A DNA stretch of 64,000 nucleotides from Natronomonas marina (GTDB lineage Archaea; Halobacteriota; Halobacteria; Halobacteriales; Haloarculaceae), in the NCBI RefSeq assembly GCF_024298905.1, contig NZ_CP101154.1:310001-374000 (forward strand), read 5' to 3'. Shown here one piece after another: positions 5,888 through 54,347 of the stretch. The position numbers and the translations under genes are program-made. Positions within the stretch are counted from its first letter, which is position 1; every line of letters starts with the position of its first letter. The notes under the pieces are model-generated. The model ran no database searches, had not been told where the DNA came from, and was given only the letters and a program-made list of their open reading frames with translations.

Positions 5888-6619
5888 ATGGAGACGTCCG
5901 ACCGCCCGACCTTCGAGACCGAGGCGGGCGAGGCGATATACCGATACGTCGAGCGGCACGGCACCGCGGCGCGGCACCGCGTCCGGGACGTGACCTCGCT
6001 GGAGGCCGACGAGTTCGAGGACGAACTCGAGCGGCTGAAGTCGCGGGGCTACCTTGAGGACGACGGCGGGACGCTGCGGGTCGCCCTGGACGTGGGGTCC
6101 ATCGAGCGCCACGAGACCGACGAGGGCGAGTACACCATCCGGCCCGCCCGCCAGGACGACTTCGAGGGCCTCGTCGACACCATCCGGGACGTGACCGCCG
6201 AGGACACCTACGTCGTCGCCGAGTCCATCGCCGAGCAGTTGCTCTACGAGGACACCGTCACCCGGCACAACGCCATCGAGTCGCGGGTCTTCTTCGTCGC
6301 CACCGTCGACGGCGAGGTGGTCGGGTGGGTCCACCTCGAGTTGCCACAGGTCGACAAACTCCAGAGCACCGCCCAGGTGACCGTCGGCGTCCGGAGCGAC
6401 CACCAGGAGCGCGGCATCGGAACCAACCTGCTGGACCGCGCCCTGGAGTGGGCCGAGGCCAACGGCTACCGGAAGGTGTACAACAGCGTCCCGACGACCA
6501 ACGACCGCGCCATCGCCTTCCTCGAGGCCCGGGGCTGGGAGACCGAGGGCGTCCGCAAGGACCACTACACCATCGGCGACGACCACGTCGACGAGGTCAT
6601 GCTGGCGTACACGTTCTGA
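5888..6619 (+). CDS. GNAT-family N-acetyltransferase with N-terminal winged-helix region
   Basis: This 243-residue protein has residues 1-80 that look like a small helical DNA-binding-like domain (EAIYRYVERHGTAARHRVRD ... LKSRGYL). Residues about 90-243 form a GNAT domain with the acetyl-CoA pyrophosphate loop SDHQERGIGTNLL and the late segment ERGW-like ARGWETEGVR. GNAT enzymes transfer acetyl from acetyl-CoA to amines or protein N-termini. The HTH-GNAT fusion suggests either a regulatory acetyltransferase or a substrate-recognition role. The start at 5888 follows a clear gap after the cupin gene; earlier codons in frame would overlap that gene. Confidence 0.8.
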   Translation: METSDRPTFETEAGEAIYRYVERHGTAARHRVRDVTSLEADEFEDELERLKSRGYLEDDGGTLRVALDVGSIERHETDEGEYTIRPARQDDFEGLVDTIRDVTAEDTYVVAESIAEQLLYEDTVTRHNAIESRVFFVATVDGEVVGWVHLELPQVDKLQSTAQVTVGVRSDHQERGIGTNLLDRALEWAEANGYRKVYNSVPTTNDRAIAFLEARGWETEGVRKDHYTIGDDHVDEVMLAYTF

Positions 6620-6662: not shown

Positions 6663-7592
6663 TCAGCGGTACAGGCTGCGGTACTTGATGAGTTCGGCGC
6701 CGATCTCACGGCTCTCCAACAGCGCGAATCCGGCGACGATGATTCCGAACCCGACGAGCGTCAGGGGTTGGATGCGCTCGGCGAGGAAGACCCAGCCGAT
6801 CGCCAAGGCGACGACGGGAGTGAGATACGTCGTCAGGTTCGCCTTCAACGGCCCCACATCGCCCATCAACACGAGGTACGCCACGAGCCCGAACACTCCG
6901 AGGAAGACGCCGAGATAGACCACCATCGCCGCGGCCAGCGGCGTCGGGTCGATGCTCGCGACCGATTCGCCGAGCGCGACCGCGAACAGGACGTGGACGG
7001 TCCCACCGAGCAGCATCGCCCAGCCGGTGAGCGCCGGAATCGGCATTTCCGCCCGGCTCCGTCGGACGAGGACGGCCCCGAGTTCGACGACGACCACGCC
7101 GCCGAAGAAGAGCAGCTTCCCGAGGAGCTCCGGGTCGAGGAGGCTCGCCGGGTCCGGCCGGATGACGACGGCGATGCCGACGAAGCCAAGCAGCACTCCG
7201 GCGTAATCCCGGCCAGCGAGCCGTTCGGCCGGAAGGAGCGGCCACGCGAGCACCGCGGTGATGATGGGGGCGAGACTGAAGATGATCGCCGCGACGCCGG
7301 CGGTGATGAACTGCTGGGCGATGAACCCGATTCCCGTGCCGCCGACCAGAAGCAGTCCCGCGGAGAGCACCGCCGTCACGTCCCGCCGGGAGCGGGGCCG
7401 CCAGTACTCGGTCGTCGCGCCGACGTAGAGTAACAGGAGCGCTGCGGCCAGGTAGCTCCGGGAGGCGGCGAACAGCAGCGGTGGGATGAACGCCAACCCG
7501 GTCTTCACGGCCGGAAACGCGGTTCCGAACAGGAGCGTGATGAGAACGAACAGGGCGATAGAACGGGCTCGAGACACGTTGAGAACGACCAT
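6663..7592 (-). CDS. EamA/DMT-family transporter
   Basis: This is a 309-residue protein of about ten membrane spans made of two EamA repeats (each about 140 residues; FGTAFPAVKTGLAFIPPLLFAASR begins the first, and the second ends LAERIQPLTLVGFGIIVAGF). Family members export metabolites or amino acids and are often annotated RhaT/YdcZ-like permeases. The ATG at 7592 is the conventional start. However, a TATA-like element (ATATAT, centred near 7606) is placed so that a leaderless transcript would begin at the in-frame GTG at 7577, which is equally plausible. A TnpB-like hairpin (7619-7640) sits immediately upstream. Confidence 0.8.
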   Translation of the reverse strand: MVVLNVSRARSIALFVLITLLFGTAFPAVKTGLAFIPPLLFAASRSYLAAALLLLYVGATTEYWRPRSRRDVTAVLSAGLLLVGGTGIGFIAQQFITAGVAAIIFSLAPIITAVLAWPLLPAERLAGRDYAGVLLGFVGIAVVIRPDPASLLDPELLGKLLFFGGVVVVELGAVLVRRSRAEMPIPALTGWAMLLGGTVHVLFAVALGESVASIDPTPLAAAMVVYLGVFLGVFGLVAYLVLMGDVGPLKANLTTYLTPVVALAIGWVFLAERIQPLTLVGFGIIVAGFALLESREIGAELIKYRSLYR

Positions 7593-8083: not shown

Positions 8084-8193
8084 TCGGCTTTGGTGGCGTG
8101 GGGGGCAATGCCACCCGGGCCCGCGCGCACTCTTGAACGAACCTGCAGTGACTGGTGTAACCTCTATAGGGGTGCCGACGTAACGGTTTTCTC

Positions 8194-9123
8194 ATGAACA
8201 TTGATAACACACGGCCATTGCAGCTGGACCGCGAGAGCCGGGGGACGCGGTACTACCGGAACGCCGTCGAGCGCCACTGGGACCCGCACGACATCGACCT
8301 CGACACCGACCGTGAGCGGCTCGTCGAGTACCTGAGCGGCGTCGACGACCCCGACCAGTACTTCAGCGCGATGAAGATGGGAATCGCGCGGTTCGGCGCC
8401 GGCGAGCAGGCCGTCACCGAGGACCTCGCGCCGCTTGCGACCGCCCTGGACGACATCGACGACCAGCTGTTCATCACCACCCAGCTCTACGAGGAAGGCA
8501 AACACACCGACCACTTCGACCGGTACTGGCGGGAGGTCATCAACCGGGTGGAGGCGGAACTGGGACTCGAACGCTCCTCGCCGACCGACGACCAGTGGTT
8601 CAACGACGCCTACGACGACCTCTTCCAGCGCAACGAAGAGGCGATGCACGCCCTGCTGGACGACCCAACGCCGGAGGACTTCGCCGTCGCGTACTGTCAC
8701 TACCACCTCGTCATCGAGGGCATCCTCGCCCAGACCGGCTACTACGGTATGCAGCAGTCCTACTCGAAGGACAACCACCCCGACCTCCCGCACCTCCCGG
8801 GACTCTACGAGGGCTTCACCCAGATCCGGCAGGACGAGGGCCGCCACGTCGGCTTCGGGATGGCGAAACTGAAGGAACTCATCAGCGAGGAGGGGGTCGA
8901 CCCTCACCTGCTGGACGACACCGTCAACGAACTGCTGCCGCTCGTCAACGGCATCGCCGCCAACCCCGACGACCAGTACATCGAGGACCTCGGCCCGAAA
9001 CCGACGGAACTCCAGACGTTCGCCACCGAGAAACACGTCCAGCGGATGGAGCAGATCAAGGACGCCGCCGCCGACGTGCCCGACCTCGACTCGCTGACCG
9101 AACTCGAGGGCGTCGGCGACTGA
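8194..9123 (+). CDS. R2-like ligand-binding oxidase (ferritin-like dimetal-carboxylate protein)
   Basis: This 309-residue four-helix protein is related to ribonucleotide reductase R2. All six metal ligands are visible in order: E71 (GAGEQ), E101 and H104 (EEGKH), E175 (LVIEG), E215 and H218 (DEGRH). The R2lox-specific valine and tyrosine that form an ether crosslink in characterised mycobacterial and Geobacillus proteins are also in register, V74 three residues after E71 and Y170 five before E175. This argues for an Mn/Fe or diiron oxidase rather than a true R2 subunit, and no R1 gene is nearby. A TATA-like CTCTATAGG lies 27 bases upstream, giving a leaderless start at 8194. The substrate is unknown. 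Confidence 0.85.
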   Translation: MNIDNTRPLQLDRESRGTRYYRNAVERHWDPHDIDLDTDRERLVEYLSGVDDPDQYFSAMKMGIARFGAGEQAVTEDLAPLATALDDIDDQLFITTQLYEEGKHTDHFDRYWREVINRVEAELGLERSSPTDDQWFNDAYDDLFQRNEEAMHALLDDPTPEDFAVAYCHYHLVIEGILAQTGYYGMQQSYSKDNHPDLPHLPGLYEGFTQIRQDEGRHVGFGMAKLKELISEEGVDPHLLDDTVNELLPLVNGIAANPDDQYIEDLGPKPTELQTFATEKHVQRMEQIKDAAADVPDLDSLTELEGVGD

Positions 9124-9978: not shown

Positions 9979-10788
9979 TCATCCCGACTCGATGCCGGCA
10001 GCGAGGAGTCGATCGAAGACGAAGACGAGGCTGTTGCCACAGCCGTTGCCGCAGACGGCCCGCTCCCGTCGGTCCTCGTCGTGCGTTCCGACCGTGCTTG
10101 CGAGGACGCTCTCGTCGTCGACGAGCAGGACCCGTCCGATGTCGACGTCCGCTCCGTCACCGGCCGCCTGTAGCCACGGGAACCGGGACTCGAAGACCTC
10201 CGGGTCGTCGAGCCGCCCTTCGAGGGTCGCCGCGAGGCTCTCGGGGACGGCGCCGACGACGACGTCGACGCCCCGCTCGCCCGCCGCCTCCAGAGCCGCC
10301 AACAGCCCGTCGGTCAGCACGTCCTCGGTCCCGAGAACGAGCCTGACGCTGTCGTCGGCGTCGCCGACGAGTTCGCGGGTCCGTGTCCGGATCGCCTCCT
10401 TCTCCGAGAGGGCCCACACCTCCTGATCCAGCGGCTCGTCGCCGCCGTCGCCGTCGGCGTCGAGTTCCTCCAGCGCCGCCTCGAGGGACTCGATCCTCGA
10501 CTCGTAGCGGCGCTGGAGGATCTCGACGGCCTCCCCGATCGGGATGGCACGGAACCGCTGTGGCGAGGAGTGTTGCACCTCGACGAGCCCTTCCTTCTCG
10601 AGGACGCGAACGGCCTCGTAGACGCGGGTTCGCGGCACGCCGACGTGGTCGCTTATCTCCCTGGCGGTGCCGCTGGACCGGCTCGTCAGCGAGACGAAAC
10701 ACTTCGCCTCGTACTGTTTCAGCCCGAGTTGCTGCAACTGCCCGACCGCACGTTGGAGGGGCGAACCCTCCGGTGTGTCCCCAACCAT
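9979..10788 (-). CDS. TrmB-family transcriptional regulator
   Basis: This 269-residue protein has residues 13-85 forming a winged helix (LGLKQYEAKCFVSLTSRSSG, SDHVGVPRTRVYEAVRVLEKEGLV) followed by a helix and a C-terminal ligand-binding-like domain (VRLVLGTEDVLTD, VDIGRVLLVDDESVLASTVG), the TrmB plan. Family members sense sugars or other metabolites. Its own promoter carries CCCCGATAGT across the TATA region, suggesting autoregulation. The same 10-mer is part of an inverted repeat at 7909-7934. The regulon is otherwise unknown. Confidence 0.8.
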   Translation of the reverse strand: MVGDTPEGSPLQRAVGQLQQLGLKQYEAKCFVSLTSRSSGTAREISDHVGVPRTRVYEAVRVLEKEGLVEVQHSSPQRFRAIPIGEAVEILQRRYESRIESLEAALEELDADGDGGDEPLDQEVWALSEKEAIRTRTRELVGDADDSVRLVLGTEDVLTDGLLAALEAAGERGVDVVVGAVPESLAATLEGRLDDPEVFESRFPWLQAAGDGADVDIGRVLLVDDESVLASTVGTHDEDRRERAVCGNGCGNSLVFVFDRLLAAGIESG

Positions 10789-10947: not shown

Positions 10948-12270
10948 GTGGTTAAGGAGACGTTCAAGTACGCTGCAACGCCGGAAGACGCCGAGACAGC
11001 CACGGCTGCATGGGGCGATATTCAGACGTGTCGGGAAGTGTACAACCACGCTCTCACACAAGAATACCGGCCACGCCCGGACTCCAATAAACCGTCGTAC
11101 ACGGAGATGCAGAACAAACTCACTGGCCCAACCGGGTGGAAAGAACAGTGGCCGGAGTGGAAGGATGTGTATTCCAAGTGCCTGCAAATGGCTATCCGGC
11201 GCATCAAGCAAAGTGAAACAGTGCTTGAGTCTCTGCAAGACCAAGGGTACGACGTTGGGCGGATGAAGTGGAAGCCCCCGCGAGAGTTCCGCAGCATCGT
11301 GTACAACCAATCCGGTTTCGACGTGGATCATAACACGGACCGGACGGATCACGCGATTGTGAACTTCTCGAAAATCGGTGACTTCCACCTCACCTACCAC
11401 CGCCCACTCCCCGACGACGGAGACATCACACAAGTCATCCTGAAAAAAGAGAAAACCGGTGATTGGACTGTCAGCATCGTCGTCGAGTACGAACCCGGCT
11501 ACCCGGAGAAACCGGCTGTCGAGGATATTGACCCGGCAGATACAGTCGGGATTGATCTCGGCATCACGAAGTTCATTCACGACTCAGACGGTCGGTCGTT
11601 CGAATCACTTGATGAGCAGCGTGACCGCGACCGTATTGACCGCCGACACCGTGCTCTCTCCCGGAAAGACCGCGGGTCGAACAACTGGGAGCAAGCCCGG
11701 CAGCAACTCGCTCAGGCATACGACCGGGTGCAGAACCGTCGTGAAGATTACCGGGAGAAGCTCGCCCACGAATACACGACTCGGTACGACGCAGTGTTCC
11801 TCGAAGATCTGGACGTGAAAGCGATGACAGAAGATGATGGGAACAGTCGGACCATCGCAGCGATGTCGTGGCGGCAAACGATTCAGGCATTCAAACGCCA
11901 CGGGAAGAAAAACGGGTGTCACGTGATCGAAGTGCCACCGGAAGGCACGACGAAACGCTGCTCACAGTGTGGCTGTGAGACGGAGAAACCTCTCTGGGTG
12001 CGTGAACACTCGTGCCCCTCGTGTGGGTTCGAAGCTGACAGGGACTACAATGCAGCCTTAGAAATCAAGCGTCTGGGGGTGGAGAAAATTGGAGTTGAAA
12101 CAACTATGCAGACAGTAGGTCAGGGCATGGCCGAATCAACAACGCCTGCGGAGACTGCGCTCCCTGGGGAGACTGAGGCGACAGCCGATGAGGTGTCTCC
12201 AAAGCGCGTCGTTGAAACAGGAAGCCCCTGCCTCAAGGAGCCGCCGAAGGCGGCGAGTAGGCAGGGGTAG
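10948..12270 (+). CDS. tnpB: TnpB, RNA-guided nuclease of an IS1341-type (IS200/IS605) element
   Basis: This 440-residue protein has an N-terminal helical/WED region and a RuvC domain. The catalytic acids are all present: D203 (TVGIDLGITKF), E286 (AVFLEDLDVKAM) and D366 (DRDYNAALEI). Zinc ligands C338, C341, C356 and C359 form the usual finger between RuvC II and III. No TnpA (Y1 transposase) is nearby, as in IS1341-type elements. TnpB proteins cut DNA at sites matching a guide RNA from the element's right end, next to a transposon-adjacent motif. The last codons of the gene form the palindrome at 12225-12267. The start is GTG at 10948. Base composition is lower in GC than in the neighbours, consistent with a mobile gene. 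Confidence 0.93.
   Translation: MVKETFKYAATPEDAETATAAWGDIQTCREVYNHALTQEYRPRPDSNKPSYTEMQNKLTGPTGWKEQWPEWKDVYSKCLQMAIRRIKQSETVLESLQDQGYDVGRMKWKPPREFRSIVYNQSGFDVDHNTDRTDHAIVNFSKIGDFHLTYHRPLPDDGDITQVILKKEKTGDWTVSIVVEYEPGYPEKPAVEDIDPADTVGIDLGITKFIHDSDGRSFESLDEQRDRDRIDRRHRALSRKDRGSNNWEQARQQLAQAYDRVQNRREDYREKLAHEYTTRYDAVFLEDLDVKAMTEDDGNSRTIAAMSWRQTIQAFKRHGKKNGCHVIEVPPEGTTKRCSQCGCETEKPLWVREHSCPSCGFEADRDYNAALEIKRLGVEKIGVETTMQTVGQGMAESTTPAETALPGETEATADEVSPKRVVETGSPCLKEPPKAASRQG
12225..12267 (+). ncRNA. TnpB right-end hairpin, predicted guide-RNA (omega/reRNA, sotRNA-type) scaffold
   Basis: CCCCTGCCT (12225-12233) pairs perfectly with AGGCAGGGG (12259-12267). An inner stem GCCGCC-GAA-GGCGGC lies between them. 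It overlaps the last codons of tnpB. Haloarchaeal IS1341-type genes are known to give sense-overlapping RNAs from this place, and TnpB guide RNAs have their scaffold here with the guide taken from the flank after about 12270. Expression is inference. Confidence 0.6.
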
Positions 12271-53702: not shown

Positions 53703-54347
53703 ATGAGCCAGAACGACTCCCCGGTAAGCACGGTCTTCGAAGTGCAGCGCAACGCCATCGAGCAGACCCACGACATCGTCGCTCGCTCCGTCGAACTCCA
53801 ACAGGACGTCAACGGCCGCATGCTCGACACGGTCGGCCCGGCCCGCGACGTCTCCGAGCGGAGCAACGACCTCGTCCGGACGGGCGTCGAGACGTACTTC
53901 GACGCCATCGAGGCCGCCGTCCCCGGTGACCAGGAGGTCGTCGCGGACCTGCGGGAGACCATCGACGAACAGCTCGACACCCTCGAGGAGACCCAGACCG
54001 ACGCCTTCGATCAGCTCGAGGAGAACCTCGAGGACGGCTCCGAGTCCGTCGACGAACTGCTCGAGGAGTTCCTCGAAACGCTCGACGAACAGGTCGAGTC
54101 GCTGATGGAGGCCAACGAGGACCTCGAATCCCAGACCGTCGACGCCTACGACCAGCTCGAGGAGGCCATCGAGGACCTCCAGGCCGAACTCGAAGAGCAA
54201 AGCGAGGAGTTCCAGGAGCGCTTCGAAGACCAGCTCGACGAACTCCAGGAGCGCATCGAAGAACAGACCGAGACGCTGCAGGACCAGGTCGAGGACGTCA
54301 CCCAGCAGGTCGAAGACGCCACCGAGGACGTCAACCCCGCCGCCTGA
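53703..54347 (+). CDS. Coiled-coil protein, possibly phasin-like
   Basis: The 214-residue protein has an N-terminal amphipathic segment (VSTVFEVQRNAIEQTHDIVA; FDAIEAAVPGDQEVVADLRE) similar to phasins that coat polyhydroxyalkanoate granules, then about 120 residues of heptad-type acidic coiled coil (EQVESLMEANEDLESQTVDA). There are no cysteines. A strong TATA (GTTTATATCC) lies 30 bases before the ATG, which suggests high expression. No PHA synthase gene is adjacent, so the phasin idea stays tentative. Confidence 0.6.
   Translation: MSQNDSPVSTVFEVQRNAIEQTHDIVARSVELQQDVNGRMLDTVGPARDVSERSNDLVRTGVETYFDAIEAAVPGDQEVVADLRETIDEQLDTLEETQTDAFDQLEENLEDGSESVDELLEEFLETLDEQVESLMEANEDLESQTVDAYDQLEEAIEDLQAELEEQSEEFQERFEDQLDELQERIEEQTETLQDQVEDVTQQVEDATEDVNPAA

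Follow-up and report, generated by a model that had tools for sequence, protein, structure and literature searches.

The window analyzed here is a 64-kb stretch (C1:310001-374000) of a 3.99-Mb haloarchaeal genome assembled in 2 contigs. At 8194..9123 on its plus strand lies an open reading frame with an ATG start that specifies a protein of 309 amino acids, named R2-like ligand-binding oxidase (R2lox) in what follows. Upstream, on the same strand, a gene at 5888..6619 codes for a GNAT acetyltransferase whose N-terminus is extended by about 80 residues (Pfam PF00583, 5e-16), and between the two an EamA-family transporter is encoded on the minus strand (6663..7592; PF00892, 1e-30). The GNAT gene is found upstream of R2lox in 5 of the 10 loci of the focal clade, which is group A1 of the tree described below. 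The transporter occurs in the window only and is absent from the other A1 loci. On the other side of R2lox, the minus strand carries a gene for a TrmB-type regulator (9979..10788; PF01978, 2e-21).

A preliminary description of this DNA had proposed that the TrmB-type regulator and a shared motif nearby could serve as clues to the control of R2lox. The regulator gene is real, as indicated by the Pfam match, yet a homologue was sought at the other nine A1 loci and found at none of them; as for the motif, none was found, and exact words shared by the promoter regions of R2lox and TrmB do not exceed 7 bases. Since the regulator is not conserved at the orthologous loci and the promoters share no such word, TrmB was ruled out as a clue to the regulation of R2lox and the lead was dropped. 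A TrmB homologue (44%) is present at locus L141, which belongs to group B.

Alignment of the upstream regions of the orthologues revealed a conserved promoter element at 8132..8168 on the plus strand. It comprises CTTGAACG, CCTGCAGTG and GGTGTAAC, and ends in the TATA-like sequence CTCTATA. Among the 10 A1 loci, six show the element clearly and one weakly, and three lack it. A leaderless transcript is suggested by the 25 nt between the end of the TATA-like box and the ATG, given how haloarchaeal promoters are generally built. Allowing 3 mismatches, the element occurs just once in the genome, where its reversed control has 0 matches, and no other copy lies in the 64-kb window; it was therefore ruled out as the mark of a genome-wide regulon. 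Its core, CAGTG-N3-GGTGTAAC, has four matches in the window within 2 mismatches, one of them exact, versus 0.49 expected. A sigma-70 scan of the R2lox promoter, sigma-70 being the wrong promoter type for archaea, gave nothing above chance. A repeat search found none upstream of R2lox, and the repeats found downstream were exclusively GC-rich and chance-like.

Two other genes of the window are recorded here. A gene for a TnpB RNA-guided nuclease (10948-12270; NCBIfam guided_TnpB, 229.9 bits) lies some 160 bases away from that for TrmB, and a 47% TnpB homologue was observed near R2lox at locus L143. Positions 53703-54347 code for a coiled, apolipoprotein-like protein of 214 amino acids, possibly granule-associated, for which an SF-assemblin match alone is just above its cut-off.

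Assignment to the R2lox family

By its sequence and predicted fold the product of the 8194..9123 gene is a member of the R2lox family, and we consider it almost certain that the gene encodes a true R2lox, an archaeal member of this known group of metal-dependent oxidases, as the preliminary description had held. The closest named relatives come from a Halobacteriales metagenome-assembled genome (85%) and from Natronomonas species (82%), which makes Natronomonas the most likely genus of the host, and genome G099 has an orthologue that is 71% identical. In a phmmer search of the PDB the top solved relative was GkR2loxI of Geobacillus kaustophilus (4hr0, E 1.6e-27), followed by the R2lox proteins of Saccharopolyspora, Mycobacterium tuberculosis and Sulfolobus acidocaldarius. 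Five NCBIfam R2lox models match the protein with E values from 8e-43 to 1e-24, each below its cut-off (best score 146.9 bits, cut-off 194), and the proteins of loci L032-L034, L011 and L119 likewise fall below the NCBIfam cut-offs. These models seem to have been built on other branches of the family, and the shortfall concerns a database threshold rather than a biochemical feature. The Pfam model Ribonuc_red_sm scores 26.8 bits against a cut-off of 33.6.

The residues of the metal site were compared with those of GkR2loxI by a HMMER alignment to 4hr0. The numbering given earlier for the six ligands (E71, E101, H104, E175, E215 and H218) and for the presumed cross-link pair (V74 and Y170) was checked and is right. 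The ligands align with E69, E102, H105, E167, E202 and H205 of GkR2loxI (numbered as in PMC10867098), V74 with V72 and Y170 with Y162; both residues of the pair are therefore placed at the metal site, with the spacing that had been described. On the plus strand the codons from E71, a Glu as first metal ligand, to the cross-link valine V74 extend over 8404..8415, those from E101 to H104, with K103 between the two ligands, over 8494..8505, those from the cross-link tyrosine Y170 to E175 over 8701..8718, and those from E215 to H218, with R217 between, over 8836..8847. The codons from A179 to Y183, channel residues that correspond to A171 and Y175 of GkR2loxI, occupy 8728..8742.

Munro et al. 2013 (PMC3824934) described, beside the Val-Tyr pair, six residues found in R2lox alone, namely Gly, Pro, Lys, Ala, Tyr and Arg. 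The Ala takes the channel position where the R2 subunit of ribonucleotide reductase (RNR) has Phe (PMC6399176), and the Tyr equivalent to Y175 of GkR2loxI lines the ligand cavity (PMC4118035). When their positions are derived from the distances to the ligands, all six are present in the focal protein as G70, P80, K103, A179, Y183 and R217. Among 101 non-identical haloarchaeal rows, counting the focal protein and omitting L101, whose R2lox is in two pieces, the six ligands, the Val-Tyr pair and the residues G70, P80 and R217 are found in 101, A179 and Y183 in 100 each and K103 in 99. The conservation of E101, K103 and H104 is partly selected for, because similarity to the focal protein and a pair of peptide patterns were used to pick the 80 named loci, and these three residues are part of one pattern, Q-[LI]-YEE-[AG]-KH. 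The remaining conserved positions lie outside both patterns. Nine haloarchaeal RNR R2 proteins out of 14 weak matches served as controls (L124, L128, L130, L133 and L134, which local tblastn did not recover, were omitted), and all nine have Thr and Phe at the positions of V74 and Y170 and none of the six R2lox-unique residues. Since every haloarchaeal row keeps the Val-Tyr pair and every control differs, its conservation is more than chance. The focal protein has F108 at the position of the radical Tyr after the site-1 His and, as in R2lox generally (PMC3824934), no C-terminal Tyr; its tail is LTELEGVGD, while two of the RNR R2 controls end in TEYQSGGSLEW.

A structure model predicted from 41 haloarchaeal sequences had a mean pLDDT of 87.6 and a pTM of 0.87. 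When it was compared with known structures by VIA-align, ranks 1-27 of the best 50 entries were R2lox (Z 33.3-29.7, rmsd 2.0-2.5 Å), and the top RNR R2 among these 50 followed below them with a Z of 26.9 and an rmsd of 3.2 Å. An earlier, shallower model made from 8 sequences (pLDDT 82.3) likewise ranked R2lox before RNR R2, with Foldseek rmsd values to R2lox entries mostly of 6-8 Å. Structure prediction, which had been suggested as a check, thus places the model on R2lox above the RNR R2 entries listed.

The predicted protein was set against the characterized members of the family. It is like GkR2loxI in its ligands, the Val-Tyr pair, the Gly that precedes the first ligand, the Ala and Tyr of the channel and the overall fold; the two differ in that identity in the structural alignment is 30% and the focal protein has a short insertion after residue 192. 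GK2771 is surrounded by an alkane gene cluster (PMC10867098), whereas the focal gene has none. The M. tuberculosis protein Rv0233 (3ee4, 4ac8) has a similar fold, with a Z of 33.0 over 286 residues to 4ac8, and is 25% identical. The S. acidocaldarius R2lox, also archaeal and with solved structures (7qbk, 6qrz), shows 25-28% identity and Z values of 31.4 and 29.7, and is no nearer to the focal protein than the bacterial R2lox proteins are. The R2lox of Natronomonas pharaonis shares genus and family with it and appears in the available text of Munro et al. (PMC3824934) as a named clade member only.

The RNR genes of the genome were also inspected. Class II RNR enzymes (NrdJ), which depend on B12, need no R2 subunit. 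The genome has two RNR large chains, and both match the class II model NrdJ_Z (672.9 and 660 bits, cut-off 399.95); they are located at C1:2397275-2401336 and C1:177253-178635, and one of them contains intein sequence. The Pfam R2 model found no R2 above its cut-off across the genome. Because the large chains are of class II and no R2 reached the cut-off, the focal protein is almost certainly not an RNR subunit.

Distribution of R2lox in haloarchaea

Of 391 sampled haloarchaeal genomes, 171 have a match to the focal R2lox at E 1e-3 or better. By hand count the match is strong (E 5e-35 or lower) in 133 of these and weak in the other 38; when 14 of the 38 were sampled, the 9 that could be aligned were RNR R2-like. 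Many genomes hold two to five copies of R2lox, a lower bound because no more than five candidates per genome were scored. Besides the focal gene, the window's own genome has three paralogues, at C1:2285368, C1:630100 and C1:224059, each 49% identical to it, which makes four R2lox genes. Annotated records of many haloarchaeal relatives carry the name 'ribonucleotide-diphosphate reductase subunit beta'.

A quick maximum-likelihood tree was calculated from 112 distinct rows, in which bacterial and RNR rows form long branches of unsure placement. The main haloarchaeal R2lox group consists of 100 rows (SH-aLRT 98); row L117 and the two bacterial references stand outside it. A Natronomonas/Halovenus group of 10 rows (A1, support 99) contains the focal gene, and the three paralogues of the same genome all fall in group B (28 rows, support 95). 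The further groups are A2, the Natrialbaceae sister group, C, which takes the remaining haloarchaeal rows, and D, the cassette type described below. Row L117, from a Halocatena salina plasmid (4980-5909 of its locus), represents a haloarchaeal R2lox that has just 31% identity with the focal protein; it groups with the R2lox of a Geobacillus plasmid (L116) in the quick tree, adjoins an aldehyde dehydrogenase gene and is perhaps a separate acquisition. Genes in two pieces were seen in Natrinema sp. SYSU A 869 (L147, 6941-7827) and in a Halobacteriales metagenome-assembled genome (L101), and may represent either real decay or sequencing error.

Genomic settings of the relatives

Seven acyl-CoA families were sought within 7.5 kb of R2lox, with references taken by annotated names and, for CoA-transferase, by Pfam. 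For comparison, 59 of 60 random regions were kept (L175 held an R2lox and was omitted; L167 and L168 overlap), 39 from genomes with A2 genes and 20 from Natronomonas genomes. At least one of the seven families was found at 18/24 A2, 11/34 B, 8/28 C and 0/4 D loci, and at none of the 10 A1 loci, versus 4/39 and 1/20 random regions from the two sets of genomes. Three or more families were present at 12/24 A2, 1/34 B, 2/28 C and 0/10 A1 loci, versus 1/39 and 0/20 random regions. For the individual families, the counts at 100 R2lox loci and at the 59 random regions were 20 and 2 for acyl-CoA dehydrogenase (p 0.002), 22 and 2 for long-chain CoA ligase (p 0.0008), 20 and 1 for enoyl-CoA hydratase (p 0.0004), 10 and 1 for hydroxyacyl-CoA dehydrogenase (p 0.04), 12 and 0 for CoA-transferase (p 0.0029), 6 and 1 for thiolase (p 0.19) and 6 and 2 for MaoC (p 0.37). 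These p-values are too optimistic because the loci lack independence: Natrinema supplies 10 of the 13 A2 loci that have at least two families. The window's genome contains 29 acyl-CoA dehydrogenase domain matches.

The paralogues of group B have settings of their own. At five B loci R2lox lies close to genes for an isocitrate-lyase-family protein and for malate synthase of the haloarchaeal type (812.5 bits, cut-off 780), an arrangement seen in 0/59 random regions, and a regulator of the HTH_10 type lies near R2lox in 17/34 B loci versus at most 1/59 random regions. Within the window's genome, the copy at C1:630100 (locus L136, C1:620600-640599), which is one of these five, was observed near an isocitrate-lyase-family gene, a malate synthase gene and a divergent HTH_10 regulator gene. 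The copy at C1:224059 adjoins an enoyl-CoA hydratase gene, and that at C1:2285368 adjoins an SDR gene and two genes for succinyl-CoA synthetase-type CoA-ligases.

In a third setting, R2lox is followed by a gene for an NADPH:quinone oxidoreductase in Haloferax mediterranei (plasmid pHME505), Natronorubrum bangense and Haloterrigena sp. KLK7, with genes for an acyl carrier protein (ACP), a ketosynthase, a holo-ACP synthase, a malonyltransferase and FabG nearby. A comparable cassette in Natrinema sp. SYSU A 869 contains the R2lox that is in two pieces. Judged by these genes, the R2lox-bearing haloarchaeal cassette is of an ACP-dependent fatty-acid or polyketide type. Cassettes with R2lox were recorded at L119 (5980-11602, H. 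mediterranei pHME505), L146, L148, L232-L236, L238 and L239. The cassette ketosynthase was found at 18 places in 16/391 haloarchaeal genomes; R2lox lies within the examined stretch at 7/18 of these places and at 7/8 of those where the ketosynthase is at least 67% identical. Counting L148 and L239, which are identical, once, there are nine different R2lox proteins in the cassettes, and all of them keep the Val-Tyr pair and all ligands. In six of the nine, A179 is replaced by Gly and Y183 by Phe, in one Y183 alone is changed and in two neither is. Replacement of the channel Ala and Tyr by Gly and Phe with the Val-Tyr pair kept is what would be expected if the substrate channel of the cassette enzymes had been re-shaped.

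A few archaea have ACP and its machinery, which were transferred from bacteria (Lombard et al., PMC3533463), and since these authors note such machinery in archaea, the cassette genes as such are unsurprising. No mention of a tie between an ACP cassette and R2lox was found in the available text of the literature surveyed. Taken by location, haloarchaeal R2lox genes outside the focal clade often have beta-oxidation or glyoxylate-shunt genes as neighbours or belong to an ACP cassette.

Discussion

The R2lox family is already published and the genus Natronomonas was already represented in its clade by the R2lox of N. pharaonis (PMC3824934), so the focal protein is an ordinary member. What is new here is the presence of four R2lox genes in one genome, the spread of the family in haloarchaea and the genomic settings of its groups.

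The chemistry expected of the focal protein follows that of GkR2loxI, in which Fe occupies site 2 and Mn or Fe site 1, O2 is reduced, and an ether bond joins Cbeta of V72 to the oxygen of Y162 (PMC4118035, PMC6060897). Because every residue named for this chemistry is present, the same reactions are likely in the focal protein, and homology makes it highly probable that it has a Mn/Fe or Fe/Fe cofactor with the cross-link. By analogy, the apo-protein would take up Fe at site 2 and either Mn or Fe at site 1, reduce O2 to a high-valent state and oxidize Y170, which would then be joined to V74 by a Tyr-Val ether. Once matured, the enzyme would carry out a two-electron oxidation of a long hydrocarbon chain held in the hydrophobic channel. 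This chain would most likely be an alkane, a fatty acid or an acyl thioester, with the product feeding acyl-CoA breakdown.

The preliminary description had stated that such proteins have no known physiological substrate. That statement is outdated, or at least too strong, given a 2024 paper describing GkR2loxI as an alkane monooxygenase on the basis of alkane loss with crude lysate, a report tempered by the fact that activity of the crude lysate was only partly lost in the E202A/H205A mutant (PMC10867098). The same paper cites Kumar et al. 2020 for a haloarchaeal R2lox that is up-regulated on hexadecane. N. pharaonis is described as growing on long-chain fatty acids and making wax esters (PMC11948995). 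Overall, we regard an R2lox acting as a Mn/Fe cross-linked oxidase of long chains as the best explanation, and a probable one. For the focal copy itself, a long-chain acyl or alkane substrate is suggested by relatives about 45-65% identical, because none of the 10 A1 loci has acyl-CoA families nearby, and we hold the chances of it to be about even.

An unlikely alternative is that the substrate of R2lox is an isoprenoid, such as an archaeol side chain, menaquinone or a carotenoid, and that the fatty acid seen in bacterial crystals is a surrogate. It fits the membrane chemistry of haloarchaea, archaeal membranes being isoprenoid (PMC9385802), as well as the lack of acyl-CoA genes near R2lox in the focal clade (0/10); one cassette R2lox is adjoined by genes for a geranylgeranyl reductase and a 2Fe-2S protein, and the co-purified fatty acid was presumed to be an artefact of the host (PMC4118035). 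However, genes for acyl-CoA metabolism, the glyoxylate shunt and ACP recur beside haloarchaeal R2lox, which argues against it. Rather improbable, too, is a protective or signalling protein without a turnover substrate, whose self cross-link would be its sole oxidation and would sense O2, peroxide or Mn/Fe. The ether bond is indeed the best documented reaction of R2lox (PMC6060897, PMC6399176) and the focal locus offers no metabolic partner, but such a protein does not account well for the conservation of the channel residues A179 and Y183, the recurrence of catabolic neighbours at the loci of relatives or the alkane loss reported for GkR2loxI (PMC10867098). A class Ic-like R2 subunit of RNR that passes a radical to an R1 chain, as the database name says, is most improbable: a Glu as first ligand and a Phe at the radical-Tyr position occur in R2c too (PMC3824934), W29 and D214 are conserved and the Pfam Ribonuc_red_sm model gives its match below cut-off, yet the protein carries the R2lox-unique residues and the Val-Tyr pair lacking in the controls, has neither a C-terminal Tyr nor Phe at the positions of A179 and Y170, resembles R2lox over R2 in structure and comes from a genome whose large chains are both class II NrdJ.

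Within the preferred reading of R2lox as an oxidase of long chains, the different settings raise the tentative possibility that haloarchaeal R2lox radiated into a set of Mn/Fe acyl-chain oxidases that act on free alkanes or fatty acids, on acyl-CoA (at the beta-oxidation and glyoxylate-shunt loci) and on acyl-ACP chains in the cassette, whose ketosynthase is of a bacterial type. If this were true, the ACP branch would be comparable to an acyl-ACP desaturase or hydroxylase, in hosts whose membranes are isoprenoid and not acyl. The haloarchaeal genes that bear the name 'ribonucleotide-diphosphate reductase subunit beta' are in many cases misnamed.

Haloferax mediterranei is a genetically tractable organism. 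R2lox has been crystallized in detail while its substrate is still disputed, and in haloarchaea many R2lox genes lie in recognizable metabolic settings. With paralogues in such settings, one of them, WP_004060699.1, in H. mediterranei, the question of the R2lox substrate becomes testable in cultured haloarchaea by knock-out and lipidomics.
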